DNA of 64,000 nt from Fidelibacterota bacterium (GTDB lineage Bacteria > Fidelibacterota > Marinisomatia > Marinisomatales > SCKK01), in NCBI GenBank assembly GCA_004124475.1, contig SCKK01000017.1, positions 1 to 64,000 of the forward strand. Direction: 5' to 3'. The notes beneath the pieces are model-generated. The model had not been told where the DNA came from. It made no database searches and worked only from the letters and a program-made list of their open reading frames with translations. A program made the translations under genes and the position numbers. Every line of letters starts with the position of its first letter. Position 1 is the first letter of the stretch. Positions 10,161 through 42,460 of the stretch are shown here, piece after piece.

Positions 10161-11444
10161 TCATCGCAATAGTACCATTTTGCGGGTCTTGGTGAAATCT
10201 CCTGTCTTGATCTGAAACAGGTAAACCCCGGCACTTACAGGTTTTCCAAGGTTGTCTGTCGCATCCCAAATGACTGACTTGTAACCCGGTTCCTCCAATT
10301 CCCGAACTAAAGTTCTGACCTGCCTACCCAGAATGTCGTATATCGTGAACGTGACGGCTGATCTCTCGGGGAGGTCATACCGTAATGTTGTGATTGGATT
10401 GAAGGGATTGGGATAAGGTTGGTGGAGAATGAATTTCGATGGAATTTGTGGTGCATCTTGGCTTATTGAAATTGTTCCAAACTCCAAGGCCCCCATATCT
10501 GGCGCAAAACCCGAATAATTATATGAACTCAGGTCTGCCAGAGTATCACCTCCCCAAATAAAGAATGTTGTGCCGGCATCAATGCAGGGGGAGCCTTCTT
10601 GAAGATGGAAGTCACCGTTCTCAGGGTCTACAAAAAGCGGGTCATTATCGATATTACCCTCCAGCCAATTAACCGTGCCGTTGTCGTTGGTTACAATGCC
10701 TGATTCACCCCCGTGCACATCAGAATAGGCAATTGTGATGGAATTGGGGTCACCAGACTGGACGAAATAAATTTCCTCTGGTGATTCGTTCCAGAGGATG
10801 GTATTAATTAAACTGGGGCTGCAATTAATCCAGCACCAAATACCGCTACCAACTTCAGCCATATTCTGACTGATGGTAACATTGACTAAACTCGGACTGG
10901 AAGAAAGACAGTGAATCCCGCCGCCAGAACCAGCCATATTCCCACTTATAATTACATTCACAAAACTCGGGTTGGAAAACTCACAAAAAATACCACCACC
11001 ATGATTTGCCGCGTTCCCGCTCACCCGTACATTCTCCAAACTTGGGTTGGAACTCGTAAAGGAAATACCTCCACCGATAGCCTGAGCGGTGTTCCCAATC
11101 ACCCTCACATTCACCAAACTTGGGTTGGATTCATAAATGTAAATCCCACCACCTCCAGAAGCGCTATTTCCACTCACTATCAAACCCACTAAACTCGGGT
11201 TGGAAGAAAAACTGCAGGAAATTCCACCACCCCAAGAAGCCAAACCGTTTGTAATGGTAAACCCACTCAAAACCGCTGTTGAATCTTCGCCATTCTCGAA
11301 CGTTACCACACTCCCGCTACTGTCGCCATCAATAACCGTCTGGGATATATAGGACGAATCCCGTGTCGTAAGAAATAGACTGCCAACCACAATATTCTTG
11401 CCATTAAAATTGATATTCTCTACATAGGTGCCTGTATCCACCAA
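10161..11444 (-). CDS. Secreted right-handed beta-helix protein with sorting tail (frameshifted N-terminus)
   Basis: The body contains about six tandem units of the type NPSLVNVRVIGNTA...GGGI, a parallel beta-helix (pectin-lyase-like) repeat. It ends in QPYPNPFNPITTLRYDLP and a roughly 80-residue FlgD/T9SS-like sorting domain closing with KTRKMVLLR. The frame is open upstream of 11444 (TTG) as INVPQDQPTIQSGIDSVSDG, which is the normal start of this family. The signal peptide, ILTTVLFLTSVSL, is encoded at about 11520-11570 in another frame ending at TAA 11510. So at least one indel near 11512-11530 separates leader from body. It was probably a cell-surface protein; expression is doubtful unless the indel is an error. 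Confidence 0.8.
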   Translation of the reverse strand: MVDTGTYVENINFNGKNIVVGSLFLTTRDSSYISQTVIDGDSSGSVVTFENGEDSTAVLSGFTITNGLASWGGGISCSFSSNPSLVGLIVSGNSASGGGGIYIYESNPSLVNVRVIGNTAQAIGGGISFTSSNPSLENVRVSGNAANHGGGIFCEFSNPSFVNVIISGNMAGSGGGIHCLSSSPSLVNVTISQNMAEVGSGIWCWINCSPSLINTILWNESPEEIYFVQSGDPNSITIAYSDVHGGESGIVTNDNGTVNWLEGNIDNDPLFVDPENGDFHLQEGSPCIDAGTTFFIWGGDTLADLSSYNYSGFAPDMGALEFGTISISQDAPQIPSKFILHQPYPNPFNPITTLRYDLPERSAVTFTIYDILGRQVRTLVRELEEPGYKSVIWDATDNLGKPVSAGVYLFQIKTGDFTKTRKMVLLR

Positions 11445-12056: not shown

Positions 12057-12695
12057 TCAGTGATCCATTCCTCCGTGGTCACCTGCTCCATCATCAGCAC
12101 TGCTGTGTTTAGAGCCGGTAACCAACGCAACCGTCCCTCCCACAACTGCCACTGCTACTCCCCAAACCCAGCCTCGCTTATACCAAGGGAACTTGGGGGT
12201 ATCGCCAGTGATAATGTTCACCGTTAACCTCCAGGCATGATCGGTTGTCGGTAAATCAAATGCGCCATTCTCGTTATCATCCGCATAAAAATCATCATGA
12301 TAGCTGTGCCCGTTAATAAGCCCTGAGACGGCGATAGAATAACTTGCCGATGGGATTGAACTGACCGCTGTGCGGTCCACCTCTTCCCCGTTTGACATAT
12401 CCCACACCCGGAGCTCAAAAAACTGCCCCACGTTAGCACTCATGCACGAAAGCTGAACTGTTAAGTTAGCGGGATGGATGGGAGAAAAAAGTCCCAAAAT
12501 CAAGAAGGAAACCATCCAGGGAACTATAGCTAAACGCGACAGTGTCACCACTCGCGGGCTCCCAGGATTGATCCATCCTCTCACTCTTCCCAAGAGAGAG
12601 TTCACGCTTTTCCAAATCATAAACAATTTGAGGTAGCTATCACCTGATAGTCGTCGGTACAGAATTTGTTCGGTTTCTAGTGGCTTATCGCTCAT
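12057..12695 (-). CDS. Hypothetical membrane-anchored protein with His/Asp-rich tail
   Basis: I do not recognise this family. From ATG 12695, eight bases after the stop of the TlpA-HMA gene, it encodes about 212 residues. There is a basic N-terminal segment, a hydrophobic helix VPWMVSFLILGLF (about 67-79), and an extracytoplasmic beta-rich domain of about 85 residues (SANVGQFFELRVWDMSNG ... NENGAFDLPTTDHAW). A second helix, WGVAVAVVGGTVALVTG, follows, and then a short tail rich in His, Asp and Gly (SADDGAGDHGGMDH) that could bind metal. As last gene of the cluster with the two TGA-containing HMA proteins, it probably shares their job. Confidence 0.65.
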   Translation of the reverse strand: MSDKPLETEQILYRRLSGDSYLKLFMIWKSVNSLLGRVRGWINPGSPRVVTLSRLAIVPWMVSFLILGLFSPIHPANLTVQLSCMSANVGQFFELRVWDMSNGEEVDRTAVSSIPSASYSIAVSGLINGHSYHDDFYADDNENGAFDLPTTDHAWRLTVNIITGDTPKFPWYKRGWVWGVAVAVVGGTVALVTGSKHSSADDGAGDHGGMDH

Positions 12696-12702
12696 CAAAG
12701 TT

Positions 12703-13503
12703 TCATCTTGATACTTTTTGCCAGTTGGTGGCAGTAAAATTTCCGGCACTTGAGACAGCCATTTTGATTTTTTCAGCAGAAACGTTCATCGGGTCATACG
12801 TGACCGAAAAGATCCCGCCATCTAAATTGAAATCATGTTTGATAACGCCCCTCAGCTCATCCAGAGCCTTGCCGATATCAGTCGGTCACCCCATTCAGAG
12901 GACGCCATTGCGAATGAGCATCCCTTCCACATTGAAGGTCGCCGTTACAGTACTCTCTCCAGGTCCAACATGCGTTTCCTTGACCCCCTCCTTCAATCCA
13001 AGAAGCTCCCGGATGTCATTTTCAAATGTCTCCGGGTACCGAAACCCGATATATTTCCGCACAATGGTGCCGGTGCTATCTACAACGAAAGTAGTGGGAA
13101 GAGCATTTACATCACCGAATGCCTTCCTGACTTTGGTGTCAGCCATTAAAACAGGGAAGCTTACGTTCAGCCCTTTCTCTTTCATAAAGCGCTTTACGTA
13201 ATCGGGGTCGTCTTCGGTACTGATGCTCACCATCCGGAAACCCTGGTTGTAGTACTTCTTGTACAGCGCTTCAAAATGTGGCATCTCCTTGAGACATGGA
13301 ATACACCATGTGGCCCAGAAATCGATGATTGTAACCACACCGGAAAGAGAGTCCAGACGGACCGTTTTCCCGTTCAGGTCAATCAGAGACAGCTCAGGGA
13401 GAGGGAATGGTTCCACAAATCCATCTGGGTCATCGTCTCCTCGCACCAGCATCAAACCTACAACCAGCAATCCGAAAAGCCACAAAGTCTCCGCCTTCTT
13501 CAC
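12703..13503 (-). CDS. Probable selenoprotein: TlpA-type thioredoxin fused to HMA domain with UxxU
   Basis: Starts with GTG 13503 (overlapping the previous stop as TAGTG, with GGAGG upstream). A signal peptide or anchor (about 1-22) precedes a TlpA/ResA-like thioredoxin domain with WCIPC near residue 50 and the cis-Pro loop ALPTTF. Conventional reading ends at TGA 12895-12897. The same frame continues through a second TGA (12886-12888) to a final TGA at 12703, giving 266 residues. The continuation reads VEGMLIRNGVL-U-MG-U-PTDIGKALDELRGV, then FSVTYDPMNVSAEKIKMAV: a full HMA fold in which both cysteines of CxxC are TGA. Seen: open frame and HMA pattern. Inferred: selenocysteine insertion. The thioredoxin could reduce the diselenide. 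Alternatives are pseudogene or termination at the first TGA. Confidence 0.8.
12854..12868 (-). promoter_or_regulatory. Candidate bacterial SECIS hairpin for the TlpA-HMA gene
   Basis: Downstream of the second TGA, GGCTC (12868-12864) pairs with GAGCT (12858-12854), counting one G-T pair, around the loop TGGAT. The loop begins 17-22 bases after the second TGA, in the range of bacterial SECIS elements. The loop shares UGG with the loop TGGTA of the neighbouring gene. A competing stem CCGA/TCGG lies directly after the TGA. The stem is short, so this is suggestive only. Confidence 0.4.
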
Positions 13504-14066
13504 TATTCGCCTCCTCCGGCACTATTTGCAGGTACGAACATTTCAATGGTGAAAGATCCAACCGGATTGTCAGGAACAGCTTCGCCCTTGGGCGGGGGAA
13601 TAACCACTGTACCAAGAATGTCGAATGGCTTATTTGTGTTCTGAGATTGATCGAGAAGTTTATTCAACATGTCATTTCGATTTAGAGAGTAACGAGCATT
13701 CGTTTCCCTTACTACGAACACGTATCCCGCACTCGTTGTCATCACTGTCCCGGTGGCCTTGATTTTCAGACTACTGATGGTAAATCCGTTGTCCCGCACC
13801 ACCTTGACAAGCTTGGGAACGTTTAGGTCGAAATCCCCACCAGGGATTTCCACTCGCCCTTCCAATACATCCACACTGATATTCTTAACGCCTACCAGGC
13901 GTTTGAGGCTCGTTTCGAGCCCTAACGCTCACTGGTTTCACGTCATGCCATAGACGCCGATAAGCACCTGTTCAAGCTGAGCGGAAACTAGAATCGGTGT
14001 CGACAAAGCAATTGCAGCCAAAATACGTCTAATGGATTTCTGTATTTTAATTTTTCTTTCCTCCAT
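13503..14066 (-). CDS. Probable selenoprotein: secreted HMA (MerP-like) metal-binding protein with UxxU
   Basis: ATG 14066 opens a frame that runs to TAG 13503 if TGA at 13938-13940 and 13929-13931 are read as residues (187 aa). It starts with a signal peptide (RRILAAIALSTPILVSA), then GVYGMT-U-NQ-U-ALGLETSLKRLVGVK and NISVDVLEGRVEI. This matches the HMA consensus GMTCxxC...I..L..L.GV...V exactly, with TGA at both cysteines. A C-terminal region of about 110 residues with FTISSLKIKATGTV and a beta-rich domain follows. Automated annotation would start at 13874 and lose the metal site. It is coupled to the TlpA-HMA gene (TAGTG). Role, by inference: periplasmic capture of a soft metal such as Hg(II) or Cu(I). 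Confidence 0.8.
13887..13921 (-). promoter_or_regulatory. Candidate bacterial SECIS hairpins for the HMA gene
   Basis: Two strong stems follow the second TGA inside the coding frame. The first is GGCTCG-AAA-CGAGCC (13920-13907 region). The second is AACGCC-TGGTA-GGCGTT (13903-13887), a perfect 6-7-bp stem with GGU in the loop. The first loop starts 13 bases after the second TGA, and the second about 30 bases after it. A larger alternative pairs GCGTT right after the TGA with AACGC. The density of stems here is unusual for this AT-rich DNA. Confidence 0.5.
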
Positions 14067-14084: not shown

Positions 14085-15044
14085 TTAAAAGGCGTGCTGA
14101 AAGTGAACCCAGAAGGCCACCAGCGGTCCTTTTTCTCCCAGCTGTTCACCGTTCACGTTCTGCCAGATGGGCCAATCCACTTCATAATGCAGCATCAGCC
14201 AGACAAAAGGAACCCAATGTCCATCGGGAAGGATAAGGGAGAGCCGTTGTCCACCGCTATTCCTCAGCCGATCACCATTCTGATACGCCGAACCTAAGGA
14301 GATGTAGTTAAGACCACCACCGATTGCAAACTGGGGTCCGGGATAATTCTTTTGAACGACCCGGTAGTGCCATCCACCGTGGATCTCTACCCACGGAGAC
14401 CGGCGAAGGTCATCTACGTTCTCCCCGTACCATTTTGCTATGATACTCACCCCTTTTTCCACCCTTCCTCTCGGAAAAGCACCGGCAACTGAGGCAAGCC
14501 AGTTCCACGAACCGCTGCCGGATTGAAGAGATGGTGAATAGAAGGTCCCGTTTCCATCCTTCAGCCGTGCCGAACCTATTGGAATCTCAGGTCCGAAGGA
14601 AATAGAAATCTGATTCGTGCCAGACTGGATATCCTTGCGGTAGACGCGATAACGGGCAAGGAGAAGCAGGTCTCCAAGTCCACGCGTCTGTTCAGTGACT
14701 ATGTTTGAGCCGTCCAGGTAGCTCAGAGAATTAAGCTTCAGTGGCAGAGAAGCAAAAATCTGAAAGTCGGGGTAGGGGCTGTAGCCAACCTGGATAGGAA
14801 AACGATGCTGTCGAAACGTGGAATCCGCCGGATTCGCAATCTTACCGGTTCCGGAATAAAGGTCTTCATGAGCTTCCCGGACCCATATGACATTTACAGC
14901 AAGACTTTTAAACCAGACAACAGCACCCGACCTCGGACCAGGTTCCTGTGCCAGACCAACGCGTACCGCGCTAACAAGAAAGGCAAGCACAACAGAGCTC
15001 CATCCCACACCGTTCGCAATTGGACTCCGTCTGGAATCATGCAT
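14085..15044 (-). CDS. Outer-membrane beta-barrel (MetA/transporter-like)
   Basis: A protein of about 319 residues with a signal peptide (VVLAFLVSAVRVGLA) and a body of alternating beta strands rich in aromatic residues, ending FWVHFQHAF with the terminal Phe typical of outer-membrane barrels. The pattern FPIQVGYSPYPDFQIFASLPL, RGLGDLLLLARYRVY, and FGPEIPIGS is that of the phenol-degradation MetA-like / transporter family. A paralogue with the same layout is at 18501-19433 in the other metal cluster. I chose ATG 15044 over 15053 because GGAGG abuts the first ATG and lies 8-9 bases before the second. Presumably it passes metal or a ligand across the outer membrane for the adjacent HMA proteins. 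Confidence 0.75.
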   Translation of the reverse strand: MHDSRRSPIANGVGWSSVVLAFLVSAVRVGLAQEPGPRSGAVVWFKSLAVNVIWVREAHEDLYSGTGKIANPADSTFRQHRFPIQVGYSPYPDFQIFASLPLKLNSLSYLDGSNIVTEQTRGLGDLLLLARYRVYRKDIQSGTNQISISFGPEIPIGSARLKDGNGTFYSPSLQSGSGSWNWLASVAGAFPRGRVEKGVSIIAKWYGENVDDLRRSPWVEIHGGWHYRVVQKNYPGPQFAIGGGLNYISLGSAYQNGDRLRNSGGQRLSLILPDGHWVPFVWLMLHYEVDWPIWQNVNGEQLGEKGPLVAFWVHFQHAF

Positions 15045-15225
15045 GGTTGACATCCTCCTTCGAAAATTTCCTATCGTCCTTGACGCTCTCCAAAGCGGTT
15101 AGTACTATGAACACGCACCGCCAGAAGAAAAGCTTTGTGGCTACATGGCCACCGGTCAGGATTAGGACAACTCTCCCGAAACTGGAGCAGTCCGTGCTAC
15201 GCATTCGCGTTACCGTAAAAGGGGG

Positions 15226-15840
15226 CTAAATCCGCAGCAAGGACCGAATTCGGTTCAGTAGACCACCCTTTGGTTTATCAGAAGTCACTTCTCCGGCTTC
15301 CACCTTTTCAGGAATAAGGGTTGCCACAAAGTTGACTTTTTCAACGGCACGAGGAATATTGTCTAAAGCCTGAGACTTTTTAGAGACTATCACTGTAGCC
15401 GTCTGCGTGGCAAGGTCAACGTTGGGCACCGACACAACACCGTCAACACCCTCAAGGGCAGTCCTCACCCGTGCTGTGCAACCTTCGCAACGCATTCCTG
15501 CCATATCGCCCTTTCCGGTAATTTTATAGACGCAAACTAGGGCATCTTCACTTCCTGATGCAAGTCCTTTACCCATAGATTCTTGAGTCTGAGCTTGAAC
15601 AGCACTTAGGAACGTCAACCCTATCACCAATGTGCTTAACAGCCTTTTTATTGATGGTGTGTATTTCATTAGCATCTCCTTTCCTGCTTTTGGCTCACTC
15701 TTCGATTCGCGAGCATCATACCCTGAACTTTCACTGGCCTGTTTTTCTTTGGCCACCTGAATGTCTTTTTCATCAGAAAGATTTCTTCCAGCTTTTGTTT
15801 TATCTGCAGGAACATTCCCACATCCACACATTTCACACAT
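15226..15840 (-). CDS. HMA-domain metal-binding protein with Cys-rich N-terminal extension
   Basis: A 204-residue frame with two plausible starts. ATG 15840, four bases after the PadR stop with AAGGAGG, gives a protein beginning MCEMCGCGN and a charged linker of about 50 residues. ATG 15669, with its own AAGGAG, gives a signal peptide (LLSTLVIGLTFLSAVQA) followed by the HMA domain: AGMRCEGCTARVRTALEGV, DLATQTATVIV, VEKVNFVATLI. There is no stop between them, so both products may be made from one frame, a cytoplasmic Cys-rich form and an exported one. The CxxC here is normal cysteine, unlike the two genes downstream. It follows the Cys-rich PadR in one operon. Confidence 0.8.
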   Translation of the reverse strand: MCEMCGCGNVPADKTKAGRNLSDEKDIQVAKEKQASESSGYDARESKSEPKAGKEMLMKYTPSIKRLLSTLVIGLTFLSAVQAQTQESMGKGLASGSEDALVCVYKITGKGDMAGMRCEGCTARVRTALEGVDGVVSVPNVDLATQTATVIVSKKSQALDNIPRAVEKVNFVATLIPEKVEAGEVTSDKPKGGLLNRIRSLLRI

Positions 15841-15841
15841 G

Positions 15842-16309
15842 TCATACCTCCTTTTCGATTTCTTGTTCTTCCAAGTTGGAGTCAAATCCACCTTCGCAGA
15901 TCCCTTCGTGGTAAGCGGTGAGAAACCGGTCCAGTCGTTCCCTATCTTGCCGCACTGTGGAAACCCACGATTCCAGGTATTCCTTTCCCTTGTTTGTAAG
16001 GGAATAGCGCCGTCTGGCTGGTCCTGCCCGTTCCGTGTCCCAACGCGAATGAACGAGACCATCTTCTTCTAACGAGCGAAGCGTCCGGTAAAGAGCCGAT
16101 GTATCCGCAGAAACCTTGAAGTCATCCAACTGACTGAGCAGTTCGTAACCATGGGCTTCCCCCCGCGATAATAAAAGCATTAAGACTGGTTCCAGGAATT
16201 TACCACTTATGCCAGTGCTGCAGGGACATGCGTCAGGATCAAGATCCGGGGTACAGCAAGGACATGGTTCTTTTTTCAGAAACATTGTGTCATTTTCATC
16301 TATCTGCAT
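15842..16309 (-). CDS. PadR-family regulator with Cys-rich N-terminus (probable metal sensor)
   Basis: A 155-residue PadR protein. The winged-helix core is clear: FLEPVLMLLLSRGEAHGYELL, VSADTSALYRTLRSLEEDGLV, and RRRYSLTNKGKEYLESW. Before it lies an unusual extension with CPCC and, eleven residues on, CPC (about residues 16-32), five cysteines well placed to bind a thiophilic metal. As first gene of the cluster with HMA proteins and outer-membrane protein, it is likely their metal-responsive repressor. The next gene starts four bases on. The operator was not identified; a TGTACA palindrome lies just upstream of the gene. Confidence 0.85.
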   Translation of the reverse strand: MQIDENDTMFLKKEPCPCCTPDLDPDACPCSTGISGKFLEPVLMLLLSRGEAHGYELLSQLDDFKVSADTSALYRTLRSLEEDGLVHSRWDTERAGPARRRYSLTNKGKEYLESWVSTVRQDRERLDRFLTAYHEGICEGGFDSNLEEQEIEKEV

Positions 16310-17461: not shown

Positions 17462-18040
17462 TCAAAGAATGTGAAACGATTCGATGTCAACGATATAGGG
17501 ATGATGATCAGTATGTCCCAAGGGGGGTGCTTCTGAGGCTATACCCGTGATAAAAACCTTCTGCCCAGAGGATTTCACCGATGCTTTAAGTCGCTTTAAT
17601 TGGGAATTGTCTTTCAGTACATATATTGTCTTGACCTTCTTATCTTCCCTGCTTGTTGAGATGATTGAAAGGGCGGGTATGCCGTTCCATTCAATGAATT
17701 GGCCTGCTACGGCCACCTGGATCTCCCGGGGTGTGAAGCCTCCCGCTATGACTGCAGCTTTCACCTTGTCAATATCGATATGCTGCCCTTCTTTCGGAAT
17801 AAGTTCTGCCGTCCCTTTCTTCAAGTTGATGATTGATTGCTCCACAGCAGGAATCTCCTGGATTCGCTTTTCCAGCCCGTAAGCGCAAAAGGGGCAGGTC
17901 AACCCATCAACTTGAACGGTCACTCTGGGCTTCAAATCATCCTTACCGGCCGGTTCCCCAGCAAAAAGAAAGGGTGATATGAACAGAGTAGCCAAGATGA
18001 TCAGTGCTGATATCCGTAATCCTATGTTATTTGTTTTCAT
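17462..18040 (-). CDS. Secreted HMA-domain (MerP-like) protein
   Basis: A 192-residue protein with signal peptide (ALIILATLFISPFLFA) and an HMA domain: VTVQVDGLTCPFCAYGLEKRI, KGTAELIPKEGQ, DKVKAAVIAGGFTPREI. Metal ligands would be the Cys pair of GLTCPFC. A C-terminal extension of about 85 residues, including a predicted small beta domain and a His-rich spot (GHTDHHPY), follows. GAGGAG precedes the ATG at a good distance. It is between a MerT-like gene and a CC-containing membrane protein, so it probably hands a soft metal ion to one of them. Confidence 0.85.
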   Translation of the reverse strand: MKTNNIGLRISALIILATLFISPFLFAGEPAGKDDLKPRVTVQVDGLTCPFCAYGLEKRIQEIPAVEQSIINLKKGTAELIPKEGQHIDIDKVKAAVIAGGFTPREIQVAVAGQFIEWNGIPALSIISTSREDKKVKTIYVLKDNSQLKRLKASVKSSGQKVFITGIASEAPPLGHTDHHPYIVDIESFHIL

Positions 18041-18111
18041 AATGTATCTCCTCGTTTTTTGTTTTTGTTAAGGACTGGAAACCGCAAGAGCTGTATCATT
18101 TACGATTTCCG

Positions 18112-18462
18112 TCAAATTAAGCGTAATAAACTCATCATCAATGATGGAAATAGGATTCCCGCGATGGCAAAAGAAACAATGCCTGTTGCAAAAATCAGCA
18201 TCCAAATGGTAAATCTCTGGCCAACTAACCGGCATTGTGCTTGAGCGCAACGGCGCCTCTCGCGGAAGTAGAAGTATTAAGCAACTCCCAAAAAGAAAAC
18301 TCCTGTGGGAATGTTTAACCACTGATATCTCATCATTGTCATCATCCACCTGACACTCCCGATTCCTACAGCAATCAAAGCCAGCGGAATGAGACAGCAT
18401 GACGCTGCAAAAACAGCGGATAATAGCCCTGATGCTCCTGATTGAAATCCTCGTATTCGCAT
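18112..18462 (-). pseudogene. MerT-like mercury transporter interrupted by TAA
   Basis: From ATG 18462 (GGGAGG upstream) the frame reads GASGLLSAVFAASCCLIPLA, then a helix ending IPTGVFFLGVA, then TAA (18277-18279). The same frame continues with YFYFRERRRCAQAQCRLVGQ and a last hydrophobic helix to TGA 18112. In MerT the first Cys pair lies in helix 1 and the second in the loop before helix 3; here the second pair (CAQAQC) lies beyond the stop. Without readthrough the product would keep two helices and lose the cytoplasmic Cys pair. The change is a single base from several sense codons. Family call is good; function lost is likely. Confidence 0.75.
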
Positions 18463-18500
18463 GTTTTTAGCCTCCCTGTATTGGCAACATTTCTCGTTAA

Positions 18501-36289: not shown

Positions 36290-36679
36290 TCATTGATGAG
36301 ACCCAACCTGTACTTCTTTCGGAATCATGTTATCATTTTTCACAACTTCCGAATCGTTACTGTTCAAGGTCAGCTTAAACCCTATTTCTTCGACAGCTTC
36401 GATCAGTGTCTCTGAACTTACTTTGGATTCGTAATATTCAATGACAACCATTCCCAAGGCAGACAAGTCTGTCACAGATTTGACTCCAGGAATCTCTCTG
36501 ACTTTCACGGTAATAAAACACACGCAACATTCGCAATCAATTCCATCTATCTGCAATATCCGAGACTTTTCTTCACTAAGATCAGTGTCCGGAGTTTCTG
36601 TTATTTTGCTTTGCTGCTGCGCGGAAATGCAGCTGACCCCAAACATGAGAAACAAGGAAACCAATATCACTGTTTTCAT
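36290..36679 (-). CDS. Secreted HMA-like (MerP-like) protein with CECC motif
   Basis: A 129-residue protein with signal peptide (VILVSLFLMFGVSCISA) and an HMA domain: RILQIDGIDCECCVCFITVK, VKSVTDLSALGMVVIEYY, and LIEAVEEIGFKL. The motif is DCECCVC, four cysteines in five positions, instead of GMTCxxC. It starts 15 bases after merA. It is possibly a periplasmic Hg(II) carrier, or for another soft metal, added to the mer operon. A Cys in the signal peptide (FGVSC) could be a lipobox alternative. Confidence 0.82.
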   Translation of the reverse strand: MKTVILVSLFLMFGVSCISAQQQSKITETPDTDLSEEKSRILQIDGIDCECCVCFITVKVREIPGVKSVTDLSALGMVVIEYYESKVSSETLIEAVEEIGFKLTLNSNDSEVVKNDNMIPKEVQVGSHQ

Positions 36680-36694
36680 TTCAACCGCATGATG

Positions 36695-38338
36695 TCAAAT
36701 TGCGCAGCAAGAGAGTTGTGCCACATCCTTTCCAAATGTGATGGCAGCCAACTTGATGCCTTCTGCCATGGTCAAATAGGGATGGAACATATCCACCAAT
36801 TCTCTGACTGTTATACCATACTTGATGGCCAGACTGACCTCCATGATAAGTTCAGCACCCTCTGGAGCTAGAATCCTTGCTCCGATCAACTTATCCGTAT
36901 CAACATCTCGAATCAGCTTAATGAACCCTCTTGTATCGCGAGCTGCGATGGCCCGGGGTACATAATCAAGTGATAGCGTTGATGTTTCCGCATTAATTCC
37001 CCGAGCTTTCGCTTGATCTTCATCCAGCCCGACACCCGTGACTTGAGGATCCGTGAAGATCACCCATGGTAAAACTGTGTAATCACTTTTCACTTGATCA
37101 CCAGTGAGCGCGTTTCGTGAAGCCAACTGGCCTTCGTATGCAGCTGTGTATACAAACATATTCTCACCGAGAACATCACCAGCTGCATAGATACCGGGGA
37201 CAGAGGTTTGAAGTATATCATCCACGATGATTGATTTATTCCCCTTCAGCTGTACACCTATCTCCTCCAAACCCATGTGAGCAGTATTAGGGGTGCGACC
37301 CGTGGCGACAATGAGTTTTTCAGCCATAAATGTTTTGAATTCACCCCTCACTTTTGAATCCACTGCTATATCGCCATCCTGTTTGTAGACTCTCAAAAAA
37401 TTGTTCCCCGTAACGATATTCAATCCTTCTTCACGCAGATATTCCGTCAGAGCTTCTGTCAAATCAGCAGCTTCGGAGGGCAGGATACGGTCAGAACGTT
37501 GGAGGATGGTCACGTTGCTTCCAAAACGAGCGAACATCTGAGCTGTTTCCAAAGCGATATAGCGCCCTCCCATTACGATAATCGACTCAGGCAGTTTATC
37601 CAATTCGAAGGCTTCCTCGTTTGTCAGGTAGGGAACATCATTCAGGCCTTCAATCTCCGGGATATGTGGGCGAGCTCCAGTCGCAATAAGGATCTTATCT
37701 CCTTCAATTATTTCACCATTGACTGTAATTGAGGTTGGTGAGATTACTTTGGCTCTTCCCTTAACCAGCCGAAAGTTTTCCATGTCTTTGATTATGTTGA
37801 TGTACTTTTCCTGGCGTAAGTCCTGAACCATGGAATTTTTCTGGTTTATCACAGCTCTAAAGTCGTTGATTGAGCCATCCGTCTGAATTCCAGGAAAGGG
37901 ATTGTTTTTTGATCGGTGTAAGGTTTCGGCTGCCCGGATCAGATTTTTGGATGGTACACAGCCTACATTCACACAGGTTCCGCCAATGGGTAGACCGTCA
38001 TTAATCATGGTTACTCTTGCACCTTGCTCCTGAGCTTCAATGGTCGCAGCAAAAGCAGCGGATCCACCACCAATTATAATCAGGTGTTTTGGTGATCCAT
38101 TTTCCACGTTGTCCTCTTTGAGAAAATTAGTGACCTGGTATTGCCCCGTATCATTAACCATCCCAGTGATTTCTTTAGCGGATATTTTATCAGTTGCATA
38201 ACTCACTTCAGCTGATCCATTTCTAAAGCTGACATTCTTTTCCACAATGCCATCTGCATTCAGGATCTTAGCAATGCTAGTGGCACAATGGTCACAGGTC
38301 ATACCTTTAATATCCATTTTAATCGTATTTATCTTCAT
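36695..38338 (-). CDS. merA: Mercuric reductase
   Basis: A 547-residue flavoprotein that reduces Hg(II) to Hg(0) with NADPH in the cytoplasm. Domains: N-terminal HMA (about 1-70, IKGMTCDHCATSIAK), FAD-binding GGGSAAFAATIEAQEQGA, redox-active disulfide in GGTCVNVGCVPSKNLIRAAE, NAD(P) binding VMGGRYIALETAQMFARFGS, and the pyridine-nucleotide-disulfide dimerisation domain. The C-terminus ends QLSCCAI, the vicinal Cys pair needed to receive Hg(II), diagnostic for MerA. It follows merT-HMA by 26 bases. Confidence 0.97.
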   Translation of the reverse strand: MKINTIKMDIKGMTCDHCATSIAKILNADGIVEKNVSFRNGSAEVSYATDKISAKEITGMVNDTGQYQVTNFLKEDNVENGSPKHLIIIGGGSAAFAATIEAQEQGARVTMINDGLPIGGTCVNVGCVPSKNLIRAAETLHRSKNNPFPGIQTDGSINDFRAVINQKNSMVQDLRQEKYINIIKDMENFRLVKGRAKVISPTSITVNGEIIEGDKILIATGARPHIPEIEGLNDVPYLTNEEAFELDKLPESIIVMGGRYIALETAQMFARFGSNVTILQRSDRILPSEAADLTEALTEYLREEGLNIVTGNNFLRVYKQDGDIAVDSKVRGEFKTFMAEKLIVATGRTPNTAHMGLEEIGVQLKGNKSIIVDDILQTSVPGIYAAGDVLGENMFVYTAAYEGQLASRNALTGDQVKSDYTVLPWVIFTDPQVTGVGLDEDQAKARGINAETSTLSLDYVPRAIAARDTRGFIKLIRDVDTDKLIGARILAPEGAELIMEVSLAIKYGITVRELVDMFHPYLTMAEGIKLAAITFGKDVAQLSCCAI

Positions 38339-38364
38339 CTTTATACCAATACCTTTTCCAAATG

Positions 38365-38979
38365 TTAATGAACCGTTGATTCGTAACCAGCGTTCCTGGT
38401 TGCTTCAATCAGGTCTTTAGTAGACACTTTCGTCGGATCATATCTGACAATAGCATTCTTGTTCTCGAAGCTTGCACTCGCTTCGATAACACCTTCGACG
38501 CGGGCCAGACTCTTTTGAATTGTCACAGGACAGGTCGCACAGGTCATTCCAGGCACATCCAGAACCACCTCTCTTGTATGAATATTCAATACCACTGCAT
38601 CAGCATCACTTGCAAACAATACAGGTGTTAAGTACGGCACTGCAAGTAAACCTAGGACTAGAATCGTAACTATCCATAATGAGATCTTGTTGATCTTATC
38701 TGACTTTGGATTGGCACAGTAGCTGCCCGGTTCACAGGCTTCAGCTTTTGGTTTGCTGTAGATACTATAAAAGGCGTATCCAAGTAAAGCCAGGGTGATA
38801 CCCATTAAGTAGGGACGGAAGGGTTCCATTGCAGTTAAATTGCCTACCCAGGCACCGCCGGCTCCTAATCCGAGCAACAGCAATGGTCCCACACAACAAA
38901 CCGAAGCTGCAATCGCAGCAAGGATAGCACCAACCAGTCCTTTGTTAGATGATTTTATTTGTCTTGAATCATTTTTCAT
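38365..38979 (-). CDS. merT: MerT-type mercury transporter fused to a C-terminal HMA (MerP) domain
   Basis: A 204-residue protein that imports Hg(II). Helix 1 has AILAAIAASVCCVGPLLLL with the CC pair. The loop before helix 3 has CEPGSYC, the cytoplasmic Cys pair. After helix 3 a MerP-like domain reads VLDVPGMTCATCPVTIQKS, FENKNAIVRYDPTK, LIEATRNAGYE. Such MerT-P fusions pass the ion without a separate MerP. ATG 38979 (GAGG seven bases before) is preferred to TTG 38991. It is the first gene of the mer operon after merR, with a MerR-type dyad at 39020-39039. Confidence 0.93.
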   Translation of the reverse strand: MKNDSRQIKSSNKGLVGAILAAIAASVCCVGPLLLLGLGAGGAWVGNLTAMEPFRPYLMGITLALLGYAFYSIYSKPKAEACEPGSYCANPKSDKINKISLWIVTILVLGLLAVPYLTPVLFASDADAVVLNIHTREVVLDVPGMTCATCPVTIQKSLARVEGVIEASASFENKNAIVRYDPTKVSTKDLIEATRNAGYESTVH

Positions 38980-39019
38980 TTTGTACCTCAATTTTCAGTT
39001 ACATTTTATTGGTACTACT

Positions 39020-39039
39020 CCTTGTACTAAGGTACAGGG
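39020..39039. promoter_or_regulatory. MerR-type operator before merT
   Basis: The dyad CCTTGTACTAAGGTACAGGG has TGTAC and GTACA arms around a 4-base centre, just like the GTAC-N4-GTAC core of merO. It lies between the end of merR (39052) and the merT start. A possible minus-strand -35, TTGATA, overlaps the merR stop, with TTAGTA 19 bases on as a weak -10. The 19-base spacing is typical of MerR-controlled promoters, but the dyad is not centred between these boxes, so the promoter itself is uncertain. Confidence 0.7.
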
Positions 39040-39051
39040 TTCCCTGGTTTA

Positions 39052-39456
39052 TCAAATTTCTTTTTCAAAGGCATCTAAAATCGGACAATCACCTTCCGGA
39101 CCAACCCCATGACAACTTGCGACCAGGGTTGATAAAGCTCTCTTGATTTGTTTTAACTCCCGGATTTTATCTGAAACAACTTTTATTTTTTCTTCTGCTT
39201 TTTTTCGTACATCTTCACACGTTGAAGAAGGATCTATACGTAAATCCAACAACTCCCTTATCTCTTTTAAAGAAAAGCCGTGCCGTTTTGATATCACAAT
39301 AAAGTGGAGGCGATTAATATCTTTATTAGTATAGAGGCGATAACCTGCTTGTGTGCGTTTTGGTTCTGGAAGCAACTTGTTCCGCTCGTAGAAGCGGATT
39401 GTTTCTATGTTTAATTTTGTTTCTTTTGCAAGCGTTCCAATCGTGAAACTGTTCAT
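39052..39456 (-). CDS. merR: MerR-family mercury-responsive regulator
   Basis: A 134-residue MerR protein from ATG 39456 (GGAAGGAG upstream). The helix-turn-helix and wing are typical: FTIGTLAKETKLNIETIRFYERNKLL and RTQAGYRLYTNKDINRLHFI. A long dimerisation helix follows. The three Hg(II)-binding cysteines are in the right places: Cys in SSTCEDVRKKAEEK, and Cys residues in VASCHGVGPEGDCPILDAF. It bends the merT promoter open on binding Hg(II). Confidence 0.95.
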   Translation of the reverse strand: MNSFTIGTLAKETKLNIETIRFYERNKLLPEPKRTQAGYRLYTNKDINRLHFIVISKRHGFSLKEIRELLDLRIDPSSTCEDVRKKAEEKIKVVSDKIRELKQIKRALSTLVASCHGVGPEGDCPILDAFEKEI

Positions 39457-39481
39457 ATTGATCTCCTTCCAATAGTACAAT

Positions 39482-39510
39482 ATAATACCCTGTACTATAC
39501 TACAGGGCAA
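39482..39510 (-). promoter_or_regulatory. merR promoter with MerR box
   Basis: On the minus strand TTGCCC (39510-39505) and TATTAT (39487-39482) are separated by 17 bases, a good sigma-70 promoter. The dyad CCCTGTACTATACTACAGGG (39488-39507) fills the spacer, with CCCTGTA and TACAGGG arms resembling those at 39020-39039. MerR therefore probably represses its own gene here. Confidence 0.75.
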
Positions 39511-41135: not shown

Positions 41136-42290
41136 CTAAAACCATCTGCGAAGCCAATCCTTCTCAAAAAGTACCTTTCCTGCATGCCAGTATCTGCCTG
41201 GTCTGTACATCTTAACTTGAGGCAGAGGTTCAGCGTAGAAATTTCCCCGGGCAAACCCAGCTTTTCCATCACCTATCTCGACAAAGCATTCACCTGCACC
41301 CGAAAATTGTTTCGGTTTCCCTTTTCCGGTAATATCCACAGCAATGTTATGAGCTACCACTTCTGCCTGGTAATGGGCAAACACTCCAGCTTTGGGAAGT
41401 GGCTTACCCAGCGCCAGAGAAATACCCGTCACATCACCTATGGAAAATACACCGGGAAACTCCGTCTCCAACCTGTTGCGATCCACCTTTACCCAGCCAG
41501 ACTCTCCAACCAGTCCCGCCTCACGAACCACTTCAGGGACTTCATGTTTGGGGACGTATGCCAAAAAATCGAAGTGAGCTTGTGCACCATTTGAAAAATA
41601 TAGTATTTTCTCCTTCGTGCCTACGCTTTCAAGGTGATGCTCCGGATAGAAATGGATGCCCTTGTCTTCGACCATCTTTCGCACCGCTGCGGACAGTTCC
41701 TTCCCCGCTACTCCCATGGGACCCGGCTCTGCGGCATAGAGAGAAATGTTCACATCATCCCGTATTTTCCTCTTACGACAGTCGTATTCTAAGAGCATGG
41801 CTGCCTCATAGGGAGCTGCAGGACATTTGTATGGGATGGAGGTTATGAGAACCACAAGATCTCCTCCCTTAAAATTCCTCAATGCATCTCTGAGACCCGC
41901 AGCCCCTTCCATGGTATAGAAGTTATGTCCTGTAGTCTCCAACCCAGGGATGGAATCGGGAACCAAATTAGCACCAAGAGACACAACTACATAGTCCCCG
42001 GAAAACTGACGGCCATTCACTTCGACGGTTTTACTTTTGGCGTCAAACTGTGCTATCATTCCTTCGACAAATTCGATTCCCTTTTTCCTAAGACTATTCA
42101 AATCCCGGCAAATCTTCTCCGGTTTTCTAAGCCCCGTCATCAACCAGAGAAACGAAGGGGCAAACCTGTGCTGTCTATCCTGGTCAATAACAATGATTCT
42201 GTGTTCCTTCCCAAGTGACTTCCTCAGGTCATTAGCAGTTACGAGTCCACCTACTCCTCCACCCAGAATTAATATGGTTTTATGTTCCAT
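41136..42290 (-). CDS. FAD-dependent oxidoreductase of the sulfide:quinone reductase group
   Basis: A 384-residue flavoprotein. The FAD site is ILILGGGVGGLVTANDLRK, followed by IIVIDQDRQHRFAPSFLWLM typical of SQR/FCSD proteins. Cysteines in YKCPAAPYEAAMLL (about 160) and YDCRKRKI match the SQR area. GVFSIGDVTG is the second FAD contact. It would oxidise sulfide and pass electrons to quinone or cytochrome c. ATG 42290 is preferred to the TTG/ATG starts a few codons up. Neighbouring DsrE, cytochrome c and ArsR genes fit sulfide detoxification. Confidence 0.85.
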   Translation of the reverse strand: MEHKTILILGGGVGGLVTANDLRKSLGKEHRIIVIDQDRQHRFAPSFLWLMTGLRKPEKICRDLNSLRKKGIEFVEGMIAQFDAKSKTVEVNGRQFSGDYVVVSLGANLVPDSIPGLETTGHNFYTMEGAAGLRDALRNFKGGDLVVLITSIPYKCPAAPYEAAMLLEYDCRKRKIRDDVNISLYAAEPGPMGVAGKELSAAVRKMVEDKGIHFYPEHHLESVGTKEKILYFSNGAQAHFDFLAYVPKHEVPEVVREAGLVGESGWVKVDRNRLETEFPGVFSIGDVTGISLALGKPLPKAGVFAHYQAEVVAHNIAVDITGKGKPKQFSGAGECFVEIGDGKAGFARGNFYAEPLPQVKMYRPGRYWHAGKVLFEKDWLRRWF

Positions 42291-42301
42291 TGTTAAAATC
42301 C

Positions 42302-42460
42302 TCATTCGATTATTATTATTTGTTCGCTTTGTACCATCAAATACGCTTTGCGCAAGGTCTCATCAGTAATCTCGAATTTGTCAAGTAACGGAGGCGGAAT
42401 GAGCCACAGCATTGAAGATACCTTGCCTTCCGGATGTGCAAAAACGAGGCAAAAACTCAT
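42302..42460 (-). CDS. Small hypothetical protein
   Basis: A 52-residue frame starting with ATG that overlaps the previous stop as ATGA, so it is translationally coupled. It reads FCLVFAHPEGKVSSMLWL, then PPPLLDKFEITDETLRKAYL. It ends 12 bases before the SQR-like start, so it is within the operon. No family is recognised. It may instead be the rest of the preceding 39-residue frame if there is an indel. Confidence 0.45.
   Translation of the reverse strand: MSFCLVFAHPEGKVSSMLWLIPPPLLDKFEITDETLRKAYLMVQSEQIIIIE

Follow-up and report, generated by a model that had tools for sequence, protein, structure and literature searches.

Two overlapping genes on the minus strand of the window (the whole 64,000-nucleotide stretch analysed here, from a marine bacterium of Neomarinimicrobiota type), called genes A and B, carry four in-frame TGA codons at the metal-ligand positions of their HMA domains, and these codons almost certainly encode selenocysteine (Sec). 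In the reading that we favour, with a probability of roughly 60%, the resulting pair of diselenol HMA domains would capture a soft metal or metalloid, and the thioredoxin domain of gene B would keep the site reduced.

Direct reading of the minus strand bore out, base for base, the original prediction that four TGAs stand at the metal-ligand Cys positions of two HMA genes. The frame of gene A runs GVYGMT-U-NQ-U-ALGLETSLKRLVGV and that of gene B VEGMLIRNGVL-U-MG-U-PTDIGKALDELRGV. In gene A, the HMA domain covers residues about 31-103 with TGA at codons 43 and 46, and these are the only in-frame stops upstream of the TAG at 13505-13503. Gene B had also been described simply as an HMA protein; both products do contain this domain, but the N-terminal two thirds of gene B, overlooked at that time, are TlpA/ResA-like, which makes it a thioredoxin-HMA fusion. 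Its thioredoxin domain (residues 35-167) has an ordinary WCIPC motif, its HMA domain (residues 186-264) has TGA at codons 203 and 206, and its ordinary stop is the TGA at 12705-12703. Apart from the ligand codons, both genes are free of lesions, as had been claimed, each having two internal TGAs in an otherwise open frame. When U was read as C, both HMA domains passed the PF00403 gathering score of 24.8 bits (35.1 bits for gene A, 35.9 bits for gene B). In AlphaFold2 models, gene A has an HMA fold and a C-terminal beta domain (pLDDT 79.5), and gene B a thioredoxin and an HMA domain (pLDDT 81.1). Foldseek grouped the modelled HMA part of gene A with CopZ, MerP and Cu-ATPase domains at TMt 0.65-0.83, values that refer to small targets, the whole-model E-values being 2e-3 or weaker. 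The GTG start of gene B overlaps the TAG of gene A by one base, and 7 bases separate the TGA of gene B from the ATG of the next gene. Since the genes of this cluster all run in one direction, we infer that A and B are co-transcribed.

Table 1. Coordinates of the two genes, their Sec codons, candidate hairpins and neighbouring features in the window.
Feature	Position	Strand	Remark
Membrane-anchored protein, no assigned family	12057..12695	-	directly downstream of gene B
Gene B	12703..13503	-	TlpA/ResA-like thioredoxin and C-terminal HMA domain with UxxU
Gene B hairpin, candidate SECIS	12854..12868	-	GGCUC-UGGAU-GAGCU
Gene B small hairpin	12872..12885	-	directly after UGA 2
Gene B Sec codon 2, TGA	12886..12888	-	
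Gene B Sec codon 1, TGA	12895..12897	-	
Gene A	13503..14066	-	exported HMA domain (predicted) with UxxU, plus C-terminal beta domain; start codon putative
Gene A hairpin 2, candidate SECIS	13887..13903	-	AACGCC-UGGUA-GGCGUU; apical loop about 31 nt after UGA 2
Gene A hairpin 1, candidate SECIS	13906..13922	-	GGGCUC-GAAAC-GAGCCU-type; apical loop 21 nt after UGA 1
Gene A Sec codon 2, TGA	13929..13931	-	TGT (Cys) in the G192 orthologue
Gene A Sec codon 1, TGA	13938..13940	-	TGA also in the G192 orthologue
Probable outer-membrane protein	14085..15053	-	no Pfam match; equivalent gene in G192
HMA protein, ordinary Cys ligands (GMRCEGC)	15226..15840	-	equivalent gene in G192
PadR-family regulator, Cys-rich N-terminus	15842..16309	-	probable cluster regulator
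Gene A paralogue, Cys-Cys (CPFC)	17462..18040	-	in neighbouring mer-like cluster

All four components of the Sec machinery named in the original prediction, selA, selB, selD and tRNA-Sec, were found in the source genome (77 contigs, 3.15 Mb, 95% complete). SelA, SelB and SelD scored 530, 349 and 387 bits, respectively, and SelD is itself the Sec form, with an in-frame TGA at its GSG-U motif. The tRNA-Sec is above the Rfam cut-off and was confirmed by ARAGORN with the anticodon TCA. Furthermore, TGA ends 20 of the 45 main ORFs of the window and thus serves as an ordinary stop, which argues against a genome-wide code change, in line with the initial expectation. Only one ORF has a long extension beyond its TGA, MerA with 134 codons, and this extension corresponds to the following gene, which lies in the same frame.

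Gene A has a single clear orthologue among the 245 genomes of the phylum, in genome G192, with 68-70% identity and the same surrounding gene order as in the window. This orthologue reads MT-U-NL-C: the first TGA is kept and the second is TGT, giving UxxC. Four more distant relatives, the paralogue in the window and those at loci L160, L165 and L166, have the same two-domain layout, and all four carry invariant cysteines at the Sec columns of gene A. Judged from the aligned sequences, the U/C orthologue and the Cys-Cys relatives are a classic Sec/Cys pairing. The UGAs of gene B align with conserved Cys as well, here through the CxxC columns of PF00403 and the Cu-ATPases. A separate scan of the loci examined for Sec-HMA motifs included one clearly false match, at L166, which was discarded.

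Used alone against the 130 genomes of the order, the HMA part of gene B has complete homologues in 12 other genomes, at 41-54% identity, and 11 of these contain exactly two TGAs, one at each ligand column; a look at these columns in homologues had been proposed at the outset. The remaining homologue (L065, genome G026) has TGA and then TGG, reading UMGW. At about 80-120 aa, these relatives are small; they are predicted to be exported or resemble lipoproteins, and have the core L-U-[ML]-G-U-P. A profile search of the 245 genomes of the phylum added one copy only, in G094, which leaves its contig right after the UxxU motif (L131) and was omitted from the covariation alignment. A scan of contigs with alignment A1, U being back-translated as Cys codons, returned zero loci, and a DNA pattern containing TGA found 10 loci. 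SelA was above cut-off in 13 of the 14 carriers of the UxxU domain, source genome included, the exception being a draft (G049); in family f15 of the same order, neither SelA above cut-off nor a UxxU homologue was found. Most carriers are labelled Candidatus Neomarinimicrobiota. One UxxU homologue (L111:2469-2531, + strand) lies on a contig labelled as an Alphaproteobacteria MAG (SZUA-1021). In G192, the gene B homologue consists of the thioredoxin only, without the HMA tail.

With the hairpin model of PMC13188914, an in-range candidate hairpin was found for each of the four UGAs, whereas none that qualified as SECIS-like lies downstream of the terminal TGA of gene B. An Rfam gathering scan of the window gave no match; therefore, no curated family covers these hairpins. 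The two gene A hairpins are better than those of 97.2% and 99.4% of the TGAs in the window (2.8% and 0.6% are as good), and the region folds better than all of 200 shuffles (z -3.4), its single-sequence minimum-energy fold connecting the two hairpins differently. Hairpin 2 is identical in the G192 orthologue, where a run of 11 identical codons spans it (run-length shuffle p 0.018). The loop of the main gene B hairpin follows UGA 2 by 22 nt and UGA 1 by 31 nt, distances at which a single element could act on both codons. Taken alone, this hairpin is unremarkable, with 9.9% of the window TGAs being as good and z ranging from 0.03 to -1.4 (the 45-nt core, folded as a single sequence, has z 0.03 and no excess stability), and the case for a gene B SECIS is therefore built on covariation in the family. 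Indeed, across 14 sequences the UGGAU loop is invariant, 98.6% of the stem positions are paired and two pairs have changed on both sides. In the small hairpin, pair 15-24 of alignment A2 is seen as GC, AU, CG and UG, at third codon positions. Family covariation is 0.320 versus 0.178 in shuffles (0/500), a comparison in which the relatedness of the sequences limits trust in the shuffles; sliding the hairpin partners abolishes it, and RNAalifold recovers the same structure. These compensatory stem changes support a putative bacterial SECIS in the gene B family.

Could the TGAs instead be real stops, or reassigned codons, produced by decay, sequencing or assembly error or a changed code? The genome is a draft and the genes lie on a single contig, L065 has a Trp codon at one of the positions, and a nearby MerT-like ORF contains a premature TAA. 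Against this stand the conservation of the TGAs in 11 of the 12 complete homologues, the compensatory stem changes, the Sec machinery, the Cys codon of the G192 orthologue and the 20 of 45 ORFs that end in TGA. Pseudogenes, sequencing error and genome-wide reassignment were thus rejected on TGA stop usage and the TGA/TGT state in G192, and an origin of this kind is very improbable. Decay, which the original prediction had found hard to reconcile with the pattern, is effectively excluded, and its selenocysteine reading is strongly supported by the machinery, the conserved TGAs, the Sec/Cys pairs in relatives and the covarying SECIS-like hairpins.

Genes A and B lie in a region rich in metal-related genes. 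A mer-like cluster at 17.1-20.4 kb contains HMA and MerT-like genes, the likeness to MerT being judged from sequence. Two further groups are an RND efflux set (29.9-36.1 kb) and MerR, MerT-MerP and MerA (36.7-39.5 kb). In G192, a protein with a C-terminus like that of the membrane-anchored protein downstream of gene B comes after the gene B homologue. Elsewhere in the family, the UxxU gene comes after a CusA/CzcA-type RND gene at L112, and at L163 (genome G057) the UxxU lipoprotein gene adjoins ArsS (TIGR04167, 455 bits, above cut-off), with ArsM-, TIGR04282- and TIGR04283-like neighbours (two glycosyltransferase genes among them) below their cut-offs. The UxxU gene at L116 (genome G085) appears to sit in an arsenosugar locus as well, judging by a gene order that matches G057. 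Beside several UxxU copies there is a redox gene related to SelL, a glutaredoxin gene or one for a TrxR-like flavoprotein.

Some other features of the window were recorded alongside. The PadR-family regulator begins with a Cys-rich leader, MFLKKEPCPCCTPDLDPDACPCSTG, and is possibly a metal sensor. The in-frame N-terminal extension of the GMRCEGC HMA gene (15667-15840, minus strand) begins MCEMCGCG. Because the ATG near 15666, which comes with a signal peptide, is a better start, this stretch may be a short metal-binding leader of its own. The MerT-like ORF at 18068-18463 (minus strand), MRIRGFQSGASGLLSAVFAASCC...FLGVA*YFYFRERRRCAQAQC, is broken by one in-frame TAA near 18277; its counterpart in L165 (2288-2638) is unbroken. 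The genes at 36290-39510 (minus strand) are standard mer genes with Cys, comprising an HMA gene, MerA (TIGR02053, 557.7 bits), a MerT-MerP fusion and MerR; MerA ends in TGA and the adjoining HMA gene shares its frame. Finally, 41136-42305 (minus strand) encodes a relative of the selenoprotein subtype of type III sulfide:quinone reductase (NF049943, 251/525 bits), with Cys in this case.

Aligned to solved structures, both genes have their U columns at the CxxC metal ligands of copper-ATPase metal-binding domains; MerP and CopZ were also matched. Selenols are tight ligands for soft metals, and their diselenides have low redox potentials. We propose that A and B form a coupled selenoprotein pair, probably exported, whose UGAs would be decoded by SelA, SelB, SelD and tRNA-Sec under the guidance of the hairpins just downstream. 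Each HMA domain would then present Sec-x-x-Sec where relatives have Cys-x-x-Cys metal ligands and could capture, outside the cytoplasm, a very soft ion such as Hg(II), As(III) or Cu(I) in this metal-resistance region. A diselenide would form easily at such a site; the thioredoxin domain of gene B, presumably acting as a reductase, would return it to the reduced state and make the site ready for another ion. A role as soft-metal trap or metallochaperone is suggested by the fold, the ligand position and the neighbouring genes, and capture is favoured because the ligand position and the mer, RND, Cus and arsenosugar contexts point in this direction. Several observations speak against this explanation: the complete mer genes of the window use Cys, several stand-alone relatives adjoin redox genes, gene A has a single TGA-bearing orthologue, the gene B hairpin is unremarkable when taken alone, L065 has Trp at the second site, and SelA was not detected in one UxxU genome (G049). 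The more elaborate proposal, namely a diselenol HMA capture system with a dedicated diselenide-recycling thioredoxin, whose LU[ML]GUP domain would have been recruited in Neomarinimicrobiota, as a lipoprotein, to arsenosugar and Cus-efflux loci, is tentative.

The main rival to metal capture is a purely redox function, in repair or in defence against oxidants, in which the Sec pair of the HMA domain would cycle through a diselenide that the gene B thioredoxin reduces. The thioredoxin fused in gene B would fit such a cycle, as would the SelL-related protein, glutaredoxin and TrxR-like flavoprotein adjoining stand-alone relatives, and catalogued selenoproteins are mostly redox proteins (PMC9312934). 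However, HMA domains are known metal binders, Sec occupies precisely their metal-ligand positions, and the neighbours belong to mer, RND, Cus and arsenosugar systems; we regard a redox-only role as rather unlikely. Another possibility is a selenium switch, compatible with the capture explanation, in which UGA 1 of gene B would act mainly as a stop, so that low selenium gives the thioredoxin only and ample selenium the full fusion. The thioredoxin-only homologue in G192 implies that a truncated gene B would be a viable protein, but UGA 1 comes after the start of the HMA motif, which would leave the short form with a useless tail, and the stand-alone relatives lack any upstream domain. Such a switch is improbable.

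The original prediction knew of no well-described HMA selenoprotein family; on this point it needs amending, since UxxU metal-binding selenoproteins, though little studied, are already catalogued as NF041115, besides Sec-containing MerP, MerT and cation ATPase. Sec forms of MerP and MerT are on record (PMC2398784, PMC9312934), as are a UxxC form of a cation ATPase and, with UxxU, the 'metal-binding protein' modelled as NF041115 (PMC13188914). A 2026 review gives candidates for Sec metal ligation and states that direct Sec-ligand interactions still await confirmation (PMC13188914). NF041115 (UxxU_metal_bind, 'putative mercuric reductase', two Sec) resembles A and B in its HMA-type fold with Sec at both ligands and is the best-scoring selenoprotein model for A, B and all members of alignment A1. 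Its cut-off of 95 bits is nevertheless far above the scores of gene A (30.3), gene B (35.3) and the gene B HMA domain alone (38.6), and none of the 245 genomes of the phylum reaches it; we therefore claim that A and B work like this family, not that they belong to it. Unlike NF041115, gene B is a thioredoxin fusion and gene A a C-terminally extended form. NF045683 (MerT_CopZ_Se) likewise has an HMA-like part within a heavy-metal selenoprotein, but gene A reaches only 17.3 bits against its cut-off of 375, and A and B are without the MerT part. The HMA domains of MerP, CopZ and Cu-ATPases (PF00403, TIGR02052) share the fold and ligand position with A and B, whereas they have Cys-Cys in place of Sec-Sec; A and B fall below the curated MerP and CopZ cut-offs (for MerP TIGR02052, 31.6 and 20.1 bits, respectively, versus 92.55). 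The N-terminal domain of gene B scores 96.7 bits with TlpA/ResA (NF002854, cut-off 170) and has the normal WCxxC, and gene B adds the C-terminal UxxU HMA domain, so ResA too is a works-like comparison only. The Cys-Cys relatives of gene A, an HMA domain followed by a C-terminal domain, have its layout at 23-27% identity, but carry CPFC versus UNQU and sit in a separate, mer-like cluster.

A further protein of another family in the phylum (L173, G152:C32, about 10755-10946, plus strand) has an HMA domain with GMT-U-HSC (UxxC) fused to a rhodanese, and a hairpin GUGC-GGUCU-GCAC about 22 nt after its TGA; it looks like an additional Sec-HMA architecture. As far as the literature and databases compared show, this UxxC HMA-rhodanese fusion, the thioredoxin-UxxU fusion, the coupled double-Sec HMA pair and the LU[ML]GUP lipoprotein subfamily with its covarying SECIS are new.

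Standard gene calling, which takes TGA as a stop, would truncate or miss such genes. In the gene B family, one message combines two UGAs with a covarying SECIS. With two compact proteins, a Cys-Cys paralogue within the window, the U/C orthologue and UxxU or near-UxxU domains in 13 more genomes, the use of Sec as a metal ligand becomes a directly testable question. These genes bear on whether bacteria use Sec as a metal ligand outside enzyme centres: if the diselenol capture reading is true, Sec would act here as a metal ligand instead of a redox catalyst.
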